A DNA stretch of 64,000 nucleotides. Origin: Alloascoidea africana. Its lineage: Eukaryota; Ascomycota; Alloascoideomycetes; Alloascoideales; Alloascoideaceae. The notes under the pieces were generated by a model. It saw nothing but the letters and a program-made list of their open reading frames with translations. It made no database searches and was not told where the DNA came from. The stretch spans positions 424,905 to 488,904 of the forward strand of contig JAKTTT010000007.1 in assembly GCA_030581615.1 (NCBI GenBank), read 5' to 3'. Positions 4,640 to 50,434 of the stretch are shown piece by piece (the first letter of the stretch is position 1; every line of letters starts with the position of its first letter). A program made the translations under genes and the position numbers.

Positions 4640-7600
4640 CTATGGCGGGCTTCCGTTCAGCAGTTTGCTCTGTTTTAACAGTTGTGCTGACCTCTCTTTG
4701 CTTTTAATTTCTAAAGTACCGCCTCTGGTCTCTGAAATTAAATCAACGTTGAGATCTGACCATCGAAATTGGTTGAGAGAAAAGGGTATTGGCTCATACC
4801 AGCTTATTTTCTCTTCCGCAACACGAGGTCGCAAGACGCTTGTTTTGTCAAAAAATCTGGTTTGAGTTAGGCTTTCTCCTGCATAGAAGCTAACTTTCTT
4901 CCTTTTCCCTGCTGCTTTTGTTCTTCGCAAAATCGGCGTGGGCTTCCATCCAGATACATCCTTTGTAACGCCGTTTGAGATAGGCTCATGCTGTTTGCGC
5001 TCTTCTGCAGGTCTGTGTGAAATGCTCTTTGTTGTTAAGGTATCTAACGACGCGTCGTTCTTCTCAATATTTTCATTGGTATCACTCTGCAGCTCTGGCG
5101 CTTGTTCTTGATTTTTTGTGTTCAACTCAGATTCCAGTGGCGATTGCTGCAGTTTTCTCTTCTTCACTGCTGACGCTACCTGTTCTGCTTCTGTGTTTGA
5201 CTGATTGTCATGTCTGTGTTCCCTCTTTAAAGGATTCTTAAAATCCAACTCATCAGCTCTCAGTAGTTTTGAAGTATCAAAGATAGCTTCTTCCTCTTCT
5301 GCTTCTGGTGAATCGCCATCCTGTAACGTAAAATTGAAAGAGCTCTCTTCTGAATGGTAACTCTGACCCTCCAGGCCATCAGAGCCGTCTTCCTCATCTG
5401 AAGAGGAGTAACATATTATCTCTGGGTCAGAATCGTTCATTTCAGAGTCAGAACAGCTTTCAACCACTTGCGAAACAGGTACCTGCACATTGTTAATAGC
5501 GGCATGAAGCTGAGATCCCCTAGTTGGGTCAACTAGACTTGGCTTTGTGGGCTGTTCCAAAAGCCCGCCTTCCAAATCTTCGACAACAATAGCTGGGCTG
5601 TCAGTCGTCCCTGGATAATAATCGACACTGCTCTCCACAATTATAGGCATCTTAGATTCAGAAAGTTTACTCTGTTTCAAACTGTTCAACTTTGTTGCCC
5701 CAATCTCATCCTCAATAGCCAAATCATGCCTTGGAGCGGTATTAACATCAAAACAGTAACCCTCCTCCTTCTTGAGGAACTGCTGTGACTTCAATTCGGC
5801 ATCATGATCCACCGGAATCGAACTTAAATAGTCAAGTCCAGCTTCAGTCGGTTCCTGTTTAATTGAAATCTCACTTACAACGTTGGTGGTTAAAACTTGT
5901 GAGTTTGGTCTCACTTCTTCTTTCTCAAGCTCTTCCCTCTCCCATTCACTCTCTAAAGTTCCGGGAATAGGAACAATTAATGGCTTTGGCAAGCGATTTG
6001 TATCAGAATCGCGTTGCACGCCGTACTTCACCAGACTGGTAGTTTTAGTGATCTGTTTGTCTTCCATCATTAACTTTAAGTCAATAGCCTTTCCTATATC
6101 CTCCCCCCTTATCCATCGCCCCATCAGATTGTAATAAGGAGCCTTTAAAGGGAACTCGTACTGTGCCGCAACTGCAACTGTATCGGAAATTCCAGGATCA
6201 TTTTGAGTTGTCACGTTATCACTTAAAAGGGTAGACGCTATTCGTCTGACCGCTGGGGAGCCCTTCCGACAAAACACTTCCAAAACTTTGCAGCTAACCT
6301 TGCACCTCTTCCTTGGCTCGATCTTCTCCAGTAACTCCAGCATAGGAAGCGCATCATCAAACTTCCAAAATTTGCGATCTAACTCCAGCCACGCCATAAT
6401 TCTGTTCAGAAATTGGGTGCTTGGGTCAAATGAATCCCAGACATCATCGTCTTTCAATCTCAGAATCTGATTAATAGCCAAATATCTTCTATCAGACTTG
6501 GGGTCAGAAAGGTTGATATTCTCCTTGACAGACAAAACAATTCTCTCTAAGCTGTCAAGTTTCGTGTTAGTCAAGCATCTTTCATCGCTCGTCCAAGAAC
6601 GTGGTTGGATAGCTTCAATCGCTTGGATCGTTTGGCCCTTGTAGAGCAAAAGAGGCAGCTGTTTGGTTACAATTTTATAACCAGCCTTTGTAAGCTCCGC
6701 GTAAGAAATCAAGTTTTGGCCGAAAAAGGGGGCATACTTGAAACTTAGGCTCATTTCATGCTTTAAAAAGCTCCCTCCTTTGGCTTTCATCTTGGACATG
6801 AATAAAAGGATAATTTCTCCTTGACCAGCTATAAACACTCCAGTGGATTCATCAAAAACAGGCTTATCATACAACTGGACATTTTTTAGAGATTCCAGGC
6901 AGCCGGTAATGTTGACAGTAATGCCAAAATCAATGTTCCAAGCATCCCTAGATTCAGAGCAAAACTCATCCCAATGTCCACTTTTTCCACATGTATCACA
7001 ATAAGCTGTCTCAGAAAGCTCTTGTGGGAATCTAAGCTGAGACGTAGAAGTATTGTTCCTTTTTGCCAGTTGTGATTCTCCTCCAATTAGTAGCTGATAT
7101 ATTCGAGCAGGAGTGAGATCTGAAGGAATGGAGTTGACTAAACTTCGTAAAGGCGTCTTAGGGTGCATGAGTGTTTTGAGTAAGGCCGCAAGAACTTCAT
7201 CGCCATCCTGCTGAGAATAGAAGAACTGGTCCTCCAGTTTCAGGTTCATATGGACCCGAGCAATGAAGTCGGAGACTGGATAACCGCCTTTATACAGTCC
7301 AAGTGTAGAAAAATTAGGGCGGGAACCCGCTTCCAAGAGTTCAGGGCAAAAGCGGTGTACGAGCTGAGTGTAAGTGGCATATACAGAAGATTGAACAAGA
7401 GGGTATAGTTCAGCATCTATAGTAGTTCTGATAATAAATAGAGCAGCCTTGGTAGCACGCCCATACTCGTCATCGGAGTAGGACCAGGTGCCATCCTTTG
7501 TGCTCAAAACCCATGATATGTTGAGATGCCTTAGGTAAGTTTCTAGAAAGTAGTCCCAGTGTGCAAAACATTCAGGTGTGCTGTTTGTGTCCAAAAAATA

Positions 7601-7666
7601 CAGGAATGGTAGGCGGTGTAAAAGTTTAACTGAGTCAGATGGCTTCAGTTCGAGGTCCAAGCTCAT
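4640..7666 (-). CDS. PNUTS/Ref2-like PP1-targeting protein with Ty1/copia Gag-protease-like N-terminus
   Basis: Intact 1008-residue frame from ATG 7666. Residues about 20-200 look like a Ty1/copia Gag (UBN2-type): KAALFIIRTTIDAELYPLVQ, then VSDFIARVHMNLKLEDQF and LTPARIYQLLIGGESQL. A CX2CX4HX4C zinc knuckle follows (C223, C226, H231, C236). Residues 241-345 resemble the copia protease region (WNIDFG where WxLDSG is usual; APFFGQNLISYAELTKAGY). Residues about 395-485 form a helical segment like the TFIIS-N/TND domain of PNUTS. An acidic, serine-rich linker leads to a PP1-docking RVxF site, KKVSF (923-927), preceded by PILRR as in Ref2 and followed by LTQTRFF, similar in spacing to the PNUTS RVxF-phi-phi motif; a second possible RVxF, KISW, is at 953-956. 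PNUTS/Ref2 tether PP1 (Glc7) to the mRNA 3'-end processing machinery. The C-terminal assignment is good, TND moderate, and Gag origin rests on pattern recognition without alignment scores. Confidence 0.7.
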   Translation of the reverse strand: MSLDLELKPSDSVKLLHRLPFLYFLDTNSTPECFAHWDYFLETYLRHLNISWVLSTKDGTWSYSDDEYGRATKAALFIIRTTIDAELYPLVQSSVYATYTQLVHRFCPELLEAGSRPNFSTLGLYKGGYPVSDFIARVHMNLKLEDQFFYSQQDGDEVLAALLKTLMHPKTPLRSLVNSIPSDLTPARIYQLLIGGESQLAKRNNTSTSQLRFPQELSETAYCDTCGKSGHWDEFCSESRDAWNIDFGITVNITGCLESLKNVQLYDKPVFDESTGVFIAGQGEIILLFMSKMKAKGGSFLKHEMSLSFKYAPFFGQNLISYAELTKAGYKIVTKQLPLLLYKGQTIQAIEAIQPRSWTSDERCLTNTKLDSLERIVLSVKENINLSDPKSDRRYLAINQILRLKDDDVWDSFDPSTQFLNRIMAWLELDRKFWKFDDALPMLELLEKIEPRKRCKVSCKVLEVFCRKGSPAVRRIASTLLSDNVTTQNDPGISDTVAVAAQYEFPLKAPYYNLMGRWIRGEDIGKAIDLKLMMEDKQITKTTSLVKYGVQRDSDTNRLPKPLIVPIPGTLESEWEREELEKEEVRPNSQVLTTNVVSEISIKQEPTEAGLDYLSSIPVDHDAELKSQQFLKKEEGYCFDVNTAPRHDLAIEDEIGATKLNSLKQSKLSESKMPIIVESSVDYYPGTTDSPAIVVEDLEGGLLEQPTKPSLVDPTRGSQLHAAINNVQVPVSQVVESCSDSEMNDSDPEIICYSSSDEEDGSDGLEGQSYHSEESSFNFTLQDGDSPEAEEEEAIFDTSKLLRADELDFKNPLKREHRHDNQSNTEAEQVASAVKKRKLQQSPLESELNTKNQEQAPELQSDTNENIEKNDASLDTLTTKSISHRPAEERKQHEPISNGVTKDVSGWKPTPILRRTKAAGKRKKVSFYAGESLTQTRFFDKTSVLRPRVAEEKISWYEPIPFSLNQFRWSDLNVDLISETRGGTLEIKSKERSAQLLKQSKLLNGSPP

Positions 7667-7918
7667 AACCAGGAGTCATTAGTGTCAAGGTGTAGTTAGC
7701 AGCCTCAAGCTGGAAGGCGAACAAAGTGAAAGACTGGTCTGAGTCTTGTGGGCCCAGAAGTGGTGCGAACTCAAAGCAGGGGGTGAGGGAGAAGAAGAAA
7801 GGGAGAAAAGAGGGAAACTGCCCTTTATATAGTAGTCTACAAAAGGACGGGTGCACAAGCACGGACACCCCCAAGTTCATTAACTAAGTCTATGTAGCTT
7901 CTTCGTTTCTGTGTCTGT

Positions 7919-8811
7919 CTATACCATTTCCTCCGCGAATGCTGTTTCGACGGGCTTATCGAGCAAGGCAGCGTGGCCGATAATGGTCACTGCCGAGGCA
8001 CCGACCAGCCACAAGATTGTCGAAATGGGGGAAGCAAAGAATCCGAGCGGAAGAGCTGGGCAAACGTTAGAAAGCACAGGAGAACGCTATTGACAGTCTG
8101 TAAAAACATACCAATTATCAGAATTCCAGTGTAGAGCTGGGAGGTTGTAAACTTGATAACGCCCAGGTTGAGATCCGCTCCATTCAGCCTTCCAATGGCC
8201 AAGACGCCACCAGCGGCAAATACCTTTAGTAGGCCCGGTTAAATATTGGCTAACATTCTAGAAGATTAAGCATGCTGTTCTTGGAAAAAACTTACGATAA
8301 CAAAAAGTAGAAGAAGATTTTTCAACAGCGCGTAGATGCTTAGCATTACCAAGATAAGGGCGTAATTGCTGGAAAAATAGCTCAAGTTGAATGAAATTCG
8401 GGCCTGAGCCTCGCCATAGCTTCCTGGTCTTGAAATTCTCCTTATATCAAAAAAGTCTGTGATGGATCTGAGAGAAGCAAACCGGCTACGAAGTGAGTTC
8501 GAATCTGACTATGGAGGACCGGTTAAAATTGCTTGTTCATCCAACAGACTCTGCAAACTTTCCATCAGTTCTCAGGCCAAAGATAGTTCCTAACATACTC
8601 GAAGTTGATCAAGATTGAATCGTTCAGAAAAAGACGCGAGCTATGGTGGACGAAAGAATGTTAATGAACGGTTCCTCCAACTATGACGTTTCATTAAGAA
8701 GCGGTGCGCTTTCGTGTTGATACTCGGAAAAACGTCAGAAAACACTGCTCAGAGAACGAATAAACTTACCTGGAGGCCAGCCGCACTGACAGATGATAGT
8801 ATGTTAGGCAT
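7919..8811 (-). CDS. YIP3: PRA1-family ER/Golgi membrane protein Yip3, four exons
   Basis: Too fragmented to appear as one frame. Exons: 8811-8770 (14 codons), 8508-8296, 8223-8112 and 8055-7919; introns of 261, 72 and 56 nt have GTAAGT/GTAAGT/GTATGT donors and AG acceptors, and the last carries TCTAAC as branch site. The spliced product is 167 residues (budding-yeast Yip3 is 176). Conserved stretches include AQARISFNLSYFSSNYALIL, TTSQLYTGILI, FFASPISTILWLVGASAVTI and IGHAALLDKPVET, the PRA1 signature. Two hydrophobic hairpins give about four membrane segments. PRA1 proteins bind prenylated Rab GTPases and act in ER-Golgi traffic. All splice phases close without a stop. It lies head-to-tail with the PNUTS-like gene, whose start is about 250 bp downstream of this stop. 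Confidence 0.9.
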
Positions 8812-42177: not shown

Positions 42178-45100
42178 TCATGGATCGGCCCATCCTAAAG
42201 AGTTTCTAGTAACCAGAGGTCGAGATATCTTTGAACTCTTATTCTTGTGGAATATTCCCAGTCCATGGCCCGTTCCACTGGCACTGGAAGAAGAAACCGA
42301 AGATACTGACAGTCTTTTCTTCTTCTGAGGTTGAGGAGGAACGTTGAAATTTGTGGTTGATGAAGACAAAATAGAAGCAATTCCTAAAGCGCCAGGTCCA
42401 ACATATCGCTCTTGTAAGGAAGGAAGCAATGGCGGTGTTGAAAATGTGTTGGTGGTCCCATCAGAATTAGAACCCGATACCGATCCTGTTCTCGTTCTTG
42501 TTTCTAGTCCCAATCTATCTCCGGACGATTTCTCTGAACTATCAGAAAGCTGAGAATCTCGCAACCTTCCAGAGTCTGCGTCGAGAGCTGGCGGAGACAA
42601 ATCATTCGCAGAACCGAACGGCGGAGATCCAATAGAAGAGTACGATAACACTCTTGGTGTTATTCGACCCGAGCTATTGGTAGAGTCAGGTGAATAATCA
42701 GAAACAGTGATTAATGGCGGTGGTGGTGTAAGTACCGGCTCCGCATCAGAGGTTGGTCGTTCTCTTGCCGAATACACTCCAGAGGGAATATATGACGAAA
42801 AAGTCTGTTCATCAGTCAATGGAGGAGTTGATAATGTGGCCAGTCCAGCTTCACCACACGCAATAGAAGGATATGAAGCCATTGGGGATGAAGACGAGCA
42901 CAAATTCCTTCCGGTATCTTGATCGCTAACGGTGGTGAGAGGACGAGAAGTAAAACCTACCGAATCCACAGATCCAGCAGACTCCCGAACCGCGGTTTGC
43001 CTTTCTCTCATGTTCTTCATTGACATCATTGCAGCCAATTCGTGGGGCAAAAGTGGCATAGTGTTGGCTGTTTGTATGGACCCAGAAATTCTCTCAAATT
43101 TTTTAGGAGGAGGAACTTCTAGCGTGGCCCTCTTTTCAGAGCCTTGTCCTAAATAGGGACGAATTTCAGGACCTGAATTTATTGACTTCTTTTCGTTGCC
43201 TTTGCCAATTCCACCGCCACCAGCTCCTCCAAAGAAGCTTCTTTTCTTTAGACATTTGAAAACAAGTAGCACGCCAACAATGTAGGCCAATCCAGCAGCA
43301 GCACTAGCAGAAGCGACTATAGCTGTTTTGCCAGTTGAGCTGTTGCCGCCTATATCAGCAGAAGAACCTTCCAAGTCGCCTTGGGCGCTCTCATATCCTG
43401 TTGATATCGACTGTTGGGTATTTGAAGATTCAAGGTTAAGAGATTTGCTTTCTCCGCCAATGGTGCTTACTCCACCAGAAAATGTAGTGTAAATGTGGGA
43501 CATCAGTTCATTTACAGATGAATCAGGGTTTTGAAACAACCTTGAAGTGTCATCATGAAGTAAGTAGGTTAACATGTAGAAACTGGATCTCGGGATGTAA
43601 ACATTCGCAACTGAAATGACGTAACCAACGCCAGCCAGTGATAGTGGAGCAATGTTATAAACCTTTATCATGTTTTCATCAACTTGCAAACCATAAGCCA
43701 ATCCTCTAGAAACATAGCTTAGAATCTGTGCACTGGAGAGTGAATGGGTTGCTACAAAAGGATAATTCAAGTTTTGATTAAAAGCAATGGGGACCAAGAC
43801 GGACTCGTTGGAAGGTGCAGTTCTGTTTTGCGCAACAATAACCAGCGGCAATCCAGAAGGAATTGAAGATTCCTGGAGGAAATCGGTTGGGACAGCCGTC
43901 ATACTAGAAGTTGGAGTAGCCGTGTCGATAAATAGAGTTGTAGGCAGCCAATACGTAGTTCCTTCTTCTGTTCCAGTTGGTGGTACATCCGTTGGAGCAG
44001 AAGTTGCCGGTGGAACACTTGTACTGGAAAATGGACTCTCTGTCCACTCCGATTGCGTACTTTCAGTGTCTGAAGGACTCTGGGCCGTCTCGGTCACAGA
44101 GCTTTTCAATGAATCAGAGACCGTACTGTCAGGAGTTGAAGTTTGAGTTGTTGCATCCCTGTCCGATGATTCTTCTGAAGCAGATTTTGATATTGTGATA
44201 ACATGCGATCCGCTTGCATCACTTATTGTACTGTAAAACTGTCTTGTAGAATCTGTTGAAGAATGAGCTTCTGAGGTTTCCCCTGAGCCAGATATTGTTC
44301 TCGTGGCAAAGGTGCTACTAGTTGGCGTTTCAATCGAGGATACATCAGTAGCAACACTTGAGGTCTCTTTACCAGAGAACGAAACTGCAGAGCTTTCAGA
44401 CGATGATAAATCAGTAGCGATGCTTGAAGTCTCTTGGCTCGAAAATGAAACTGCAGAACTCTCCGAAGCAAAACTCGTATATGAAGAATCGGTTGCAATA
44501 CTTGAAGTCTCTTGGCTAGAAAACGAAATTCCCGAGCTTTCAGAAACAAGACTTGTGTATGAAGAACCTGTTGAAACAGACTCCGCACTCGTCAACACAG
44601 AACTGGATGCCAATGAGGGACTTTGCAAAGAGGACAACTGAGAACCGGAAACTGAAGAGATTGAAAACAAACTGGTAGAAGCAGTCACAGATGAAATAGA
44701 AATGCTTAAAGTTGATTCTGATGCAGTTGCTGTAGAAATACTACCAGACGATTGCGATTCAGATATATCAGTAGAGATTGCCGAGGAGGCAATTGAGTCC
44801 AATAGAGAGGGCGATTCAGAAGCTCTAGAGGTTCTGGTGAGAGCAAGGGAACCAGTGGAAAGGGATAGAGAGGTGACAATTGAGCTGGCTGAGATACTGG
44901 GGCCTGCACTACTAGAGATATCAGCCAAGGATCCCGAGGATTCAACTAGGCCAGAAGCCGTAGAAGATGGCCCAGCGCTGAGAGAAACCGATTCTGATCC
45001 TGATACATAACTGGAAAACGAACTAGTTGCCAAACTTTGAACGATTGATAAACTTGTAGAACCAAAGGACTGGGATCTTGAAGCTTCACTTTCGGAAATG

Positions 45101-48100
45101 CTGCCTGTTGTGAATGAAGTAGAACTTTCTTCTTCCATCGAATCAAGTGAGTGAACCTTGGAATTTGTAAAGGGCACCGACCTACTGAGTGAAATAGAAG
45201 CCGTTTCATCACTAATGATACTTGTAGGTTGAGACGTCACGTAAGTCGTTCCGCTCTTTGAACTATCAGTGTAAACAGATGTTGCGACAGAAAAAGAAGA
45301 TAAAGTGGTGATAATGCTACTACCACTCTGTATTACGGTACTTGAATGGTCAACCGATGTCTGGTCCAAGGATGTTGCCTCAGAGTTTGTAAGAACAGTT
45401 AAACTTGATGACTCTCCTGTAGTGTCCAAAGATTCAGAACTTGTGGAGTCAGCTGTTGAACTATGAGTAAGAGAACTCGATTCCGAAGGAGTAGCATCTA
45501 AAGTGGAAATACTTATTTCACTAGGTCTGTTTGAGTTTATTGTTGATTCCACAGAGAATACAGAAACAGGACCAGTAATCTTTGATTCCGAGACTGATGA
45601 TGTTGTAGTCAAGTCTCTATTAGAAGTAGTTGACATGAAATCAGAAGTAGTAACATCAGACTCCACAAATTCGCTAGATTGGTCCAAGCTAGTGTGACTT
45701 TCAATCGAGGGTGTCAATTCCGAACTGGGAGTTTGAATAGTAGAATCTACTGATCCCGTAGGTGTAGACTCTGAACTTTGGGTATCAGGAGAAACAGTTG
45801 GCATATTAAAACTGGCAGATGAAGGTATGATTGCCTCAGATAAAGTGTCAGATTCGATAGGATTATATCCAGAAACCGAAGAGGATTTTGGAAACGGCAG
45901 AATAGTCGGAAACTCCAATTTTGAGGATTCACTATAAACAGGCGATACCTGAGGAAAAGATGTCGACTGGTCAACAATCTCAGAACTAGTGGCAATGGTG
46001 AGAACAGACCATGTTTCTGAGTTGACAGTAGTTGTGTCAATGCTCTCTTCTTTGACTGTCGTTTTACTTTGAACAAGTGTTTGTGATCCAACTGAGCTTG
46101 TATGCACATCATCAGATGGTATATAGGAAACAACGGAAGTATCTTCAGTTGGTAATGAGGTAGCAGTATTTCCACTGGTAACGAGAACACTTGAAACGGG
46201 AGAATTACTGAAAATTGGCGAGCTAGCAGTTGATGTACTAGTGTAATCCTCTTCTGTAACACCCGAAGTCAAAGTTGGCTCGAGAGTATTTGAGGTAAGA
46301 TCACTAATAGACACGTCATCGGATGTCAAAATACTAATTCCAGTATTCTCAGTTGTACCTGTTATTGACGTATCAACTAGAGAGGCAATTTCACTGGATG
46401 GGGTTGGAACAAGTATCGTGCTTTCTGTTTGTGGTCCTTGGGTTAAACCTGTTGTCAAGGTGGATCCTTTTCCAGTAGAAAAACCCCTGTCAGATTCCGC
46501 TGTTGGTACAGCTGTTTCTCGGGTAGAAGATTCAGTTTCTTCCGTCTTCAAAGTGTTGACGTAGTCAGATGACTCTTCAGAGAATTCAGCAGTAGCAGAT
46601 AATGTCGTCGGTACTACTGTTCCTCGAGTAGAAACTGCTCCATTTGTGGTATCTATCACTGAAGAATCCACATGTCCAGTTGGCTGAGAATTGGATTGTA
46701 AAGTTTCCGTATCTTGATTGCTCAACGATTGAATAGGTTCAGTCTCCTGGGTCAAGGTTCCAAAAGCAGTAGAAATACCTCTATCGGACTCCACTATTGG
46801 TACACCTGTTTCTCGGGTAGTAGATACAGTTTCTTCCGTCCTCAAGGTGTTTACGTAGGTAGACAACTCTCCAGAAGATTCAACAGGGTCAGCATTGCTG
46901 GATAAGATCGTCGGTACAATTGTATCTTGAGTAGAAACTGCTTCATTTGTGGTTCCTATCACTGAAGAATCCTCCTCATGCCCAGTTGGCACAGCATTGG
47001 ACCGTAAAGTTTCCGAGTTTTGAATACTCAACGTGTGAATAGTTTCAGTGTCTTGAGTGGTGGGCAAAGTTCCAAAAGCCGTGGAAATACCCCTATCACT
47101 TGTTTCTTGGACAGTAGATTCAGTTTCTTCTGTCTTCAAAGTCTTCACATCGGTAGGCAACTCTCCAGACAATTCAATAGTGCCACCATTGGTAGATGTT
47201 GTCGTTGGAGGTGTCACTATTCCTTGGGTAGTAGTGCCTATCACAGAGGAAACCTGAGGACCAGATATGGGGGTATTGGACTGTAAAGTCTCCGTGTCTT
47301 CATTGCTCAACGTGTGAATGGGTTCGGTCTCTTGAGTTAAAGTTCCAGAAGCAGAACTAGCAGTTGTACCATCAGCTAACGTCGTGCCTGGTAATTCAGG
47401 TTCGGTGTTTGTAGAAACGGGCTCTTTACTACTAGCTATTGTTGAAACTGGAACTTGATCCTCAGAAGATTGAGCTGTGGTTGGGTTAAGCAGTGAAGTG
47501 GAAACAGGAACGGCATCCTCACTAGAAATCGTTGGGATGCTGCTAGTGGTACTTTCGGTTTCGAAAGTTGTCGGTTCATCTGAAAGTGGTGCAACGCCTG
47601 TACTGGTCAAAGCAGCAGAGTCAACATCTGTCAGAACAGTGGAACTGATCGCAGATTCTGATAGTTCATGCTCAGTGCTCTTAGTGGTAGGCACAAGTTG
47701 ATCTGTAACATCAGAGAGTACTGTCAAAGTTTTAAATGTACTGCCATAAGTTGGTGGCGAAACAATGTTTGACTGAACATCATTTGCAGACAAAGAATTG
47801 GTATTTGCCTGGACACTGTCCTCGCCGATTGACGTATCTAAATCCATATAACTTGTAGGCAAATTATGGGACGTAACTCCATGTACAGTACTAACAAAGT
47901 TTGATGTTTGAGTCTCTTCCAAAGATACCGAACGATCAATTGTTTCGGATTGTGTAAAGCTATCGATGTTTGTAGTCGATTGAGTATCTGACAAGGAATC
48001 ACCATCCTGGCTTGTTGACTTTTCGGTGGGAATAGTGATACTATCTGATATGATACTCTCGGATACAGTAGGAATGGATGTCGAAGTTTCAACAGAGAGG

Positions 48101-50434
48101 ATGGTGGTATCCGTAGGAATAGAAACAGTAGAGGAAATCAAAGTTTCAGATAATGATCCGTCTTCAACCAAAGAATCAGATGCAAGAGAAATGCTCTGTT
48201 GATGGATCGTGCTAGAAAACCCAGGCTCACTAATCACAGCCGATAAAGTTGTTGGTACGGTACTGGCAGTTTCTATACCGCGGCCAGTACTCAAACTCTC
48301 TACAAGATTCTCAGAGTTGGAAACCGCTGAGGGAATTTGACTCGAAAATGACAGTGTAGGAGCATTATAGTCCTTTGACGTAAAGCTTGATCCTTGCAAG
48401 TCAGAACTCCAAGGTTGTTGAGTTACAGCGCTAGATGTTAGAGACAACAACGGACTTGGGGGGTCGGTGGGAATTGAACTCAAAGTTGAACTTTTATCGC
48501 CTCCAAAGAACGATGTGAATTGACTTTGAAGACTTGAAAATAGAGAACGCAACCCTTCGGAAGAACTGCCTTGTGCACTTGGCAGCACTGATGATGCTGG
48601 TTTATGTTGGAGTGCAGAGTCTGAAGCGCTTGGTATATCTATAGACGTCTCGGAAACATGCTGACTAGACGTCGTTGAAATAAGGCTCAATTTATTGCTA
48701 GTTGAGGCAATTTCAGAAACGGGCTCCTCTGATAAAGTCTGAGTGCTAAATGTATGTGGGACACCCGAACTGTCATCACTGACGAATCCAAGGCTGGAGA
48801 CCGAGGACAATTGTGACGATTGCTCTATAGTCGATTCAGAATATTGAGACAAAGTCGAACTCGGTAGTGAAATAGCCGATGTTGGCAAATGGCTATCGGA
48901 ATATTGAGAAGACACCGCTGTGGTCGAGCCTTCATCAGTGCCCGAGGTTCCGAGAGAACTAGACAAAGGTAGTGAAGACGATTGTTCCGTTTCAAAGTCT
49001 TTTGTGGTAGACTGAGAAACACTACCACTGCTCGGAGTAGCAGGTTCGCTGCTGCCAATACCTTGTTGTGACTCCGAATCGGATGGTGAGCTGGAGGCTG
49101 ACACTGTTAGCGAAGACTTGCTTTGAGTGGTCAATAAGGTTGATGCCAAGGACAATTCACTTGCAGCTGAACTTAGTTTAGGACTAGTAGTTACCGAACT
49201 GTCTGTTGAAACTTTGCTGTCTATTTCCCGCCAGCTTGAACTTTCCTGAGATGGTGAAAAACTGGCAGAAGAAGATTTAGCAGTTTGCGACAGTTCGGAT
49301 GAGCTTTCATCAGATTCAGAAGCTCGGATGGTGGAAGATGCAACTGCGTCATCGCTGGATGTTATTGCTGCCGAGGAAGTGGTAGCAAAATTCCAGCTTT
49401 CTTCGCTCTCAGTTTCTGAGTATGACGATGGGGAGCTCTCAAAATCCGACGAACGCGGTATCGACAGCGTTGGAAAAGACATTGTTTGGGAAGTGTATAT
49501 TTCCGTTCTGGAGCTACTGGTAGGTATCGACATGGATGCTTCATTTTTAGTCGAAGGTGAGCTTCCTGAAAATTCAGGGGAAGTGGAAACCGCTTGTTCG
49601 CTGCCAGTTTTGGTATCATCATCATCATCATCGTTTCCGGTCGTTATGCGAGGTATTGATTCTATTTCAATTTCTCTGCTTTGAGCCGAAGAAGATGAAG
49701 GCTCCTCCTCCTGAGCTGATAAACTGGAAGAAGTCAAGGTTTGTTCGTCATTGTTGGTCGATGAGTCCGTTGACGAGGATAATTTTTTGTAATAAGGGCC
49801 GCTCGAAGCGACAGAAGAATCGGGTGAGTGGAGGCTTTGTATGCTTGAAGAGGGCAACGAGAGTGTCGCAAAGCTAGTGAAGGGTGAGGTTTGGATATGG
49901 GATTGAGAGACTGTAGAAGACTTTGAAGTGGTGGATACTATTTCGTCGCTCTCCTCGATACTCGACAAGGAGGCCGTGGAGGTTGTTTGTTCTCTAGGGG
50001 CCGATGTTGGTAGAGCAGACGAATTAGAGTAAGCGATGGCTATTAATCACAGTTTGTAGAGTTAATATAATGTCTGAGGTTAAACTGTTTGCTGTAGGCT
50101 GTAGGCTCTAGACTCTAGACTCTAGATCTGGCATGGATAGATCTACTTACACTCGTCGTTCTTCTTGAACAACCTGAAGGCGTCTCTCGAGTCAAGAAGC
50201 CGTCCAAGATTGAACAAGTTCTCGGCTCTCGTTTTGGGGGCTATATGACGGTTGGGGGTCAGTTTCCAAAAAAAGGATGACTGGTTGGGGGTAGGCAGTA
50301 TCGAGAAGAAAAGAGCACATACGCTTTTGCCTTGGGTCATTAGCAGCGAGTGACAGAGACGACAGACAGAGTACCAGGAGCAGCCATAGGAGAGCATCCG
50401 GACTGCGCCAAGGGTCGGTGCCTCGAACAATCAT
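42178..50434 (-). CDS. Msb2/Hkr1-type signalling mucin, three exons
   Basis: Exons 50434-50323, 50240-50151 and 50039-42178; introns of 82 and 111 nt (GTATGT and GTAAGT donors), phases closing to 2687 residues. Exon 1 encodes the signal peptide (ALLWLLLVLCLSSLSLA). Then come about 2000 residues dominated by Ser/Thr, including three copies of a 94-101 residue repeat (about 964-1267) and about 24-residue repeats (about 1887-1971, SSQETSSIATD). A Hkr1-Msb2 homology domain follows (about 2149-2260: PFVATHSLSSAQILSYVSRG, VISVANVYIPRSSFYMLTYL), one membrane segment (about 2306-2330) and a 357-residue cytosolic tail rich in Ser/Pro. These mucins sit in the plasma membrane and feed osmotic and cell-wall signals to HOG or filamentation MAPK pathways through Sho1/Opy2. 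The long tail is closer to Hkr1 than to Msb2; orthology is not settled. Confidence 0.88.
46440..47350. repeat. Coding minisatellite-like repeats in the mucin gene
   Basis: Three diverged copies of a unit about 303, then 282 bp long, seen from recurring landmarks at about 46690, 46994 and 47276 (ATTGGAnnGTAAAGTnTCCG). Each copy encodes the LSNQDTETLQSN and TEETESTxRET segments. In-frame lengths (101 and 94 codons) preserve the mucin frame, so copy number can change without breaking the gene. Confidence 0.85.

Follow-up and report, generated by a model that had tools for sequence, protein, structure and literature searches.

On the minus strand of a 64-kb window of the Alloascoidea africana genome (the window is the whole stretch of DNA analysed, C7:424905-488904 of a 23.18 Mb genome in 138 contigs) lies a gene that is, in our judgement, very probably a fusion of the Gag, zinc knuckle and protease of a Ty1/copia-type retroelement (the head) with a PP1 regulator of the PNUTS/Ref2 type (the tail). 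A sequence-only reading of the window had proposed such an in-frame fusion within an uninterrupted 1008-codon frame at 4640..7666, of unstated strand; the frame is real and has zero internal stops, and the fusion is borne out by profile matches of the head and by matches of the tail to a second, Gag-free protein of the same genome (hereafter the C86 protein; L003:3876-6404, plus strand). We show, at the level of sequence comparison, both the in-frame fusion and the copia origin of the knuckle and protease. The predicted protein has an estimated size of ~113 kDa.

The evidence for the head comes from profiles from which the head itself was left out. A database search with one copia open reading frame (ORF) of the same genome yielded a set of 12 copia proteins; the Gag-to-protease profile was built from 11 of these and the protease profile from 10. 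P0003, which on motif search lacked the knuckle motif as well as that of the protease (its precomputed Pfam list has the protease family, not Gag), was dropped from the profiles, and P0009 was excluded from the protease profile only. In one prespecified test, the head scored 25.1 bits on the Gag-to-protease profile (E 3.4e-10), compared with 5.2 bits for the best of 1000 shuffled heads and -1.4 for the best of 14 other window proteins. Residues 216-372 scored 19.6 bits on the protease profile (E 3.3e-8; shuffles <=8.7). When 245 ORFs of the window and of the retrieved loci were scored on the protease profile, the whole fusion ORF (14.7 bits) fell among the element ORFs, the next ORF below the elements scoring 2.5; on the full profile the fusion ORF reached 20.0 bits, with a coiled-coil ORF and a host zinc-knuckle ORF both at 10.0. 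The only Pfam family returned for residues 216-370 is Pol_BBD, aligned over its full profile length at E 0.1, which is under its cut-off. When residues 240-370 were compared with eight element pieces from the same genome, two (L005 and L011b) beat all 200 shuffles and six did not. An additional Pfam match, to the ubiquitin hydrolase family UCH (E 0.011 to 0.03), is under cut-off, covers 63 of 254 profile positions and was set aside as chance. Pairwise comparison of residues 1-215 with the same eight pieces gave nothing convincing, the single z of 4.0 (equalled by 1 of 200 shuffles) falling on a protease ORF and being judged spurious.

The knuckle, CDTCGKSGHWDEFC, is of the CX2CX4HX4C type and sits after the capsid region, with its four metal-binding residues invariant in all 12 alignment rows; both it and the KKVSF site of the tail (923-927) are exactly where the sequence-only reading had placed them. 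From residue 243, the sequence WNIDFGITVNITG...GQGE...YAPFFGQNLISYAELTKAGYKI is, by eye, near the copia pattern W..DSGAS.HMT...G.G...Y.P....NL.S...L...G. The active-site motif D[ST]GA is replaced, however: residues 246-249 read DFGI, where 11 of 11 copia rows have DSGA. Because the triad is DFG and not DSG, the fusion protease probably no longer cleaves, although a dead protease may still be able to dimerise, and its apparent descent from a copia-type protease stands despite the lost triad. Structure prediction, a check put forward in the sequence-only reading, gave capsid-like and retropepsin-like folds when the model of the head was guided by copia relatives, and the Gag fold is putative; a single-sequence AlphaFold2 model of the protein (pLDDT 32) was kept out of the fold search. 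The whole protein has no match to integrase or reverse transcriptase families at E 1.

Several lines of evidence bear on whether head and tail belong to one gene. The remaining five frames across 4640..7666 contain 34 to 82 stops each (longest open run <=100 codons), and at the base composition of the head a run of 370 open codons would arise by chance with a probability of ~1e-9. A genome search with the whole protein found a sole other match, the helical domain of the C86 protein (E 2.4e-4), and a pairwise genome search with the head alone gave no second match even at E 10; the fusion gene is single copy in this genome. Methionine is absent between residues 306 and 423, so a separate tail gene could begin only within the protease or within the helical domain of the tail itself, and there is no internal ATG able to start an intact tail domain. 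Codon choice is of coding type in both halves (z 3.0 and 5.6, compared with 1.0 to 18.3 for 14 window genes and 2.1 to 6.3 for four element ORFs), and GC is equal in head and tail halves; these measures show coding, not host ancestry. Given the missing AUG at 306-423, the coding-type codons and the equal GC, we conclude that head and tail would form one gene. That they are instead two neighbouring genes, or an artefact of assembly or read-through, we consider close to negligible, for while the origins of head and tail are unrelated, this alternative has to accommodate 1008 stop-free codons in one frame in addition to the three features just named.

The tail and the C86 protein are collinear, with two BLASTP matches at residues 373-476 (E 3e-7; 24% identity in the helical domain) and 951-1003 (E 0.002). 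Between these matches, ILRRTK...KKVSFYAGESLTQTRFFD in the fusion aligns with ILKRKN...KTVQWRPDHDLVQIREFE in the C86 protein, a 24-residue stretch for which 5 of 100000 shuffles were as similar. Set against a human PNUTS stretch, the C86 stretch is identical at 10 of 24 positions (0 of 100000 shuffles as good) and the fusion stretch at 5 of 24 (442 of 100000). Taken as alignments, these comparisons show shared ancestry of the tail and the C86 protein. According to the available portion of PMC10783616, Ref2 contacts Glc7 through an I/L-x-R-x-G-K/R motif, an RVxF site and a hydrophobic pair; for both Ref2 and PNUTS it gives a prediction of disorder over most of the protein, save for the TFIIS N-terminal domain (TND). 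In the fusion, ILRRTK resembles the first motif with T in place of G, KKVSF matches the RVxF motif and is predicted to dock, and the FF pair lies at +11/+12, two residues later than the +9/+10 given for Ref2 in the same portion of that paper. The C86 protein is likely the canonical PNUTS/Ref2 of this genome, and as it has no match on the copia profiles, a head of this kind does not characterise the family in general; the fusion is, on these comparisons, a second, divergent, single-copy PNUTS/Ref2 paralogue with a captured head. Its docking on PP1 and its membership of a complex would follow from family likeness, the family traits in question being the binding of PP1 and Swd2/WDR82 and a place in CPF/APT or PTW. 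The earlier description of a 'PP1-CPF subunit' accordingly holds as regards the likeness to PNUTS/Ref2, and has to be qualified in that this is a divergent second paralogue whose subunit status derives from likeness only. PDB matches of the tail profiles were put down to chance; the repeated WD-40 protein at 1.1e-8 is a sum of weak repeats, none of which passes singly.

The start codon of the fusion gene lies within GGTTATGAGC, which would be the complement of the half-tRNA stretch of the initiator tRNA. A similar arrangement is found elsewhere in the genome (L024:186-194), where an LTR-like (long terminal repeat) sequence ending in ACAACA is followed by GGTTATGAG and a Gag-like start, MSFASTAFSFSKNQKLKGSENFKKWDRLL, at that ATG; this element remnant appears to start Gag in the same manner as the fusion gene. 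Elements of the Hemivirus type such as copia and Ty5 prime on a half tRNA, from nucleotide 40 in the anticodon stem-loop (available portion of PMC1181622), half-tRNA priming being also described for copia in the available portion of PMC5371799, and the former cites a paper titled for the use of initiator methionine tRNA by Ty5. None of the 14 other window genes compared has the start context of the fusion gene, and the chance of the seven flanking bases for one given ATG is ~6e-5, an arithmetical figure for a context noticed afterwards. The primer-like site at the start codon is suggestive of a scar of the element. The L024 remnant occupies L024:1-470 at the end of C44 and consists of the LTR-like stretch, the half-tRNA primer-like site, ~90 bases of Gag start and, directly after these, the same LTR-like stretch inverted, hairpin-like, followed by short tandem repeats. 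We tried the DNA upstream of the fusion gene as an LTR and rejected it: its only second genome match is a gene on C66 read by eye as YIP3/PRA1, and its alignment to the L024 LTR-like stretch stays at the level of shuffled sequence (equalled by 230 of 500 shuffles). A further ATG, 13 bases 5' of the gene ATG, opens a 14-codon frame (window 7635-7679, minus strand) that overlaps the start codon out of frame and could possibly exert translational control.

Other observations set limits to the reading of the gene as a fusion. The Gag-only profile gives the head 2.5 bits, within the shuffle range (max 4.8), and a Pfam search of the head returned no Gag family. Residues 1-215 reach 5.9 bits on the full profile, just over the best shuffle, and the Gag profile is in itself non-discriminating on the 245 ORFs, an unrelated coiled-coil ORF outscoring the genome's own Gags. 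The signal of the head is carried by knuckle and protease, Gag being not significant alone and supported jointly only; of the copia Gag-protease head that had been proposed for the first ~365 residues, the knuckle and protease are upheld by profile and Gag on its own is not. As for the tail, Pfam and PDB sequence searches do not recognise the helical domain as a TFIIS N-terminal domain, for which reason PNUTS/Ref2 is the best label and not a database assignment. The TND-like helical domain earlier placed at 395-485 is recovered, slightly upstream, as the C86 match, with its TFIIS identity unconfirmed in those searches. Finally, no LTR was detected upstream of the fusion gene, and the genome has 21 occurrences of GGTTATGAGCYY compared with 12 of the reversed pattern; with 21 copies the site proves little alone, and its weight lies in its position on the start codon. 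The findings that the sequence-only reading had named as contrary to itself were not obtained: a copia protease match is present, there is no sequence sign of two separate genes, and a head common to all Ref2 proteins is at odds with the C86 protein.

Searches for relatives covered ~5.8 billion proteins. With the whole protein as query, the top 7996 word-sharing candidates were scored and none reached E 0.001 or better, and with the head 3884 candidates were scored and none reached E 1 or better, in a search that needs shared five-residue words and that very distant relatives would escape. Scans of viral contigs with the fusion and three element ORFs of the same genome gave no relatives; a reverse-transcriptase pattern picked out three contigs, which were left out of the comparisons. 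In open-licence literature on copia Gag domestication, no fusion of Gag to a PP1 regulator was found in titles and abstract openings, and in the available part of PMC7055916 the mention of a retrotransposon relates to expressed repeats. The fusion would be a case of retroelement domestication, a known process, its unusual feature being Gag and a probably dead protease on a PP1-targeting protein.

The familiar cases of retained Gag proteins are of Ty3/gypsy type in animals, with short restriction factors of yeast as their copia counterparts. Like Arc, PEG10/RTL8 and ASPRV1 of animals, the fusion would be a host gene made from the Gag or protease of a retroelement; those proteins, however, have Ty3/gypsy-type (Metaviridae) capsids or a retroviral-like protease, and the abstracts on them mention no PP1-regulator fusion. 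With Pseudoviridae (Ty1/copia; Hemivirus type, e.g. Ty5, copia) the fusion shares the order of Gag-like region, knuckle and protease with their motifs, and the start codon in a half-tRNA primer-like site, but its frame lacks an integrase or reverse-transcriptase match, no LTR was detected upstream, and the triad is DFG. With PNUTS, Ref2 and Ppn1 (PP1 regulators in transcription termination, CPF/APT) it has in common a helical N-domain, a linker, an I/L-x-R-like stretch, RVxF and a C-terminal segment, arranged in that order, but adds the copia N-terminus and is very divergent, and the genome also has a Gag-free version.

On balance we lean, by no wide measure, towards capture of the head by a PNUTS/Ref2 paralogue that would still work as a PP1 targeting subunit, with functions added by the head; the functional part, considered by itself, is tentative. 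A lineage with two PNUTS/Ref2-type genes, after duplication, would have seen one lose its N-terminus, which was replaced by the 5' part of a Ty5/copia-type element; this piece would begin with the primer site and Gag start and run through the protease, the element being cut before integrase and losing everything past the protease. Capture as such would not be without precedent: in the 625 fungal genomes surveyed in PMC6416283 (available portion), genes containing parts of elements are reported to be more frequent in Saccharomycotina. The product would probably still be a PP1 (Glc7) targeting subunit, its tail docking PP1 via ILRR..KKVSF and engaging the transcription or 3'-end machinery, and the head might add self-association, through the capsid region and a dimer of the dead protease, and RNA contact through the knuckle. 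Oligomerisation and RNA binding as the gain from the head are a guess. The Gag-free relative in the same genome is a natural control for the fusion which, if functional, would illustrate how a phosphatase regulator can acquire an assembly module and would tie the targeting of a phosphatase to the control of elements, a link open to direct test.

Alternatively, the fusion may be a recent accident in which the head is functionless or passive and either the tail works or nothing does. The gene is single copy with no orthologue found in the protein-database searches, the genome has a second PNUTS/Ref2-like gene, and the start context is still primer-site-like, all of which would speak for an accident. 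Yet five of the nine specified residues of the copia protease motif W..DSGAS.HMT are changed while 370 codons remain open and the knuckle is intact; without selection, such divergence, as far as it followed capture, would be expected to bring several stops and frameshifts, and we regard an accident as unlikely. Slightly less likely again is a role in restriction, with the head domesticated to act as Drt2 and p22 do against Ty1: it would co-assemble with related copia capsids and poison the lattice, and the tail would mainly carry it stably or anchor it in the nucleus. In Drt2 the capsid C-terminal domain of a Ty1' Gag has become endogenized at a fixed locus in yeast and inhibits Ty1' (available portion of PMC12530519); Drt2 thereby resembles the fusion as a retained Gag piece of a copia-type element; the genome also has 34 reverse-transcriptase matches, several from the same elements and 14 with internal stops. 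Restriction of the Drt2 type is, however, narrowly subfamily-specific according to the same portion, and pairwise search with the head finds no other like Gag in this genome. Moreover, known restrictors, Drt2 and p22 included, are short capsid fragments without a host-domain fusion, not Gag, knuckle and protease with a PP1-docking-like tail. We give little credence to a further possibility, in which the captured Gag, with its element-derived recognition of RNA, would still serve as an address label for retroelement RNA or nascent particles, and the tail would bring PP1 and the termination machinery to them, making a host-made switch, guided by Gag, that ends copia transcription.

Features of the fusion gene and its upstream region (window positions, in the order of the gene)
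Feature	Position	Strand	Basis
TATA box (TATATAAA), ~165 bases before the ATG; putative promoter role	7824..7831	-	sequence reading
GGTTATGAGC around start codon, as expected of a half initiator-Met tRNA primer site in a copia/Ty5-type element	7661..7670	-	sequence and tRNA comparison
Fusion gene, 1008 codons in a single open frame, present once in the genome	4640..7666	-	frame reading and genome search
Gag capsid-like helical region, residues 24-206	7049..7597	-	profile and model; not significant on its own
CCHC zinc knuckle, residues 223-236	6959..7000	-	motif and alignment
Copia-type protease domain, residues 243-351, triad DFG for DSG	6614..6940	-	profiles, Pfam, alignment, model
Helical domain common to the C86 PNUTS/Ref2-like protein (TND position), residues 372-481	6224..6553	-	BLASTP and genome search
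Acidic linker, residues 500-900, basic VKKRKLQ at 834-840; probably disordered (from composition)	4967..6169	-	
PP1-docking-like stretch, residues 910-940: ILRRTK, KKVSF (RVxF), then FFD	4847..4939	-	C86 alignment and motif definitions (available portion of PMC10783616)
C-terminal segment common to the C86 protein, residues 951-1003	4658..4816	-	BLASTP

Other possible element traces occur in the genome. An ORF at L029:2235-3287 scores 28.4 bits on the full Gag-to-protease profile, and a lone ORF with a copia-type protease-like domain (L009:1042-1980, plus strand, on C48; also L053:2443-3378) scores 23.9 bits on the protease profile. The latter, lying among genes read by eye as a Yen1-like nuclease and an Argonaute-like protein, may be a relic, since its codon choice is without coding bias (z -0.5). 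A weak reverse-transcriptase fragment (G000:C7:409692-409853; E 1.1e-4, under cut-off) lies ~15 kb before the window and ~20 kb from the fusion gene. Several window genes, namely NUP120, SEC6, LTN1 and a CAAX protease, are single open frames known to Pfam. Just upstream of the fusion gene (window 7919-8220, minus strand) is an intron-bearing gene, by eye YIP3/PRA1, with a 69% identical stretch on C66 (L044:3811-4392) beside a gene that by eye is MPE1-like (a CPF subunit). A 2451-codon ORF at window 42178-49533, minus strand, is extremely rich in serine and threonine (598 and 341 residues), resembles a wall or signalling mucin and has no match in Pfam at E 0.01.
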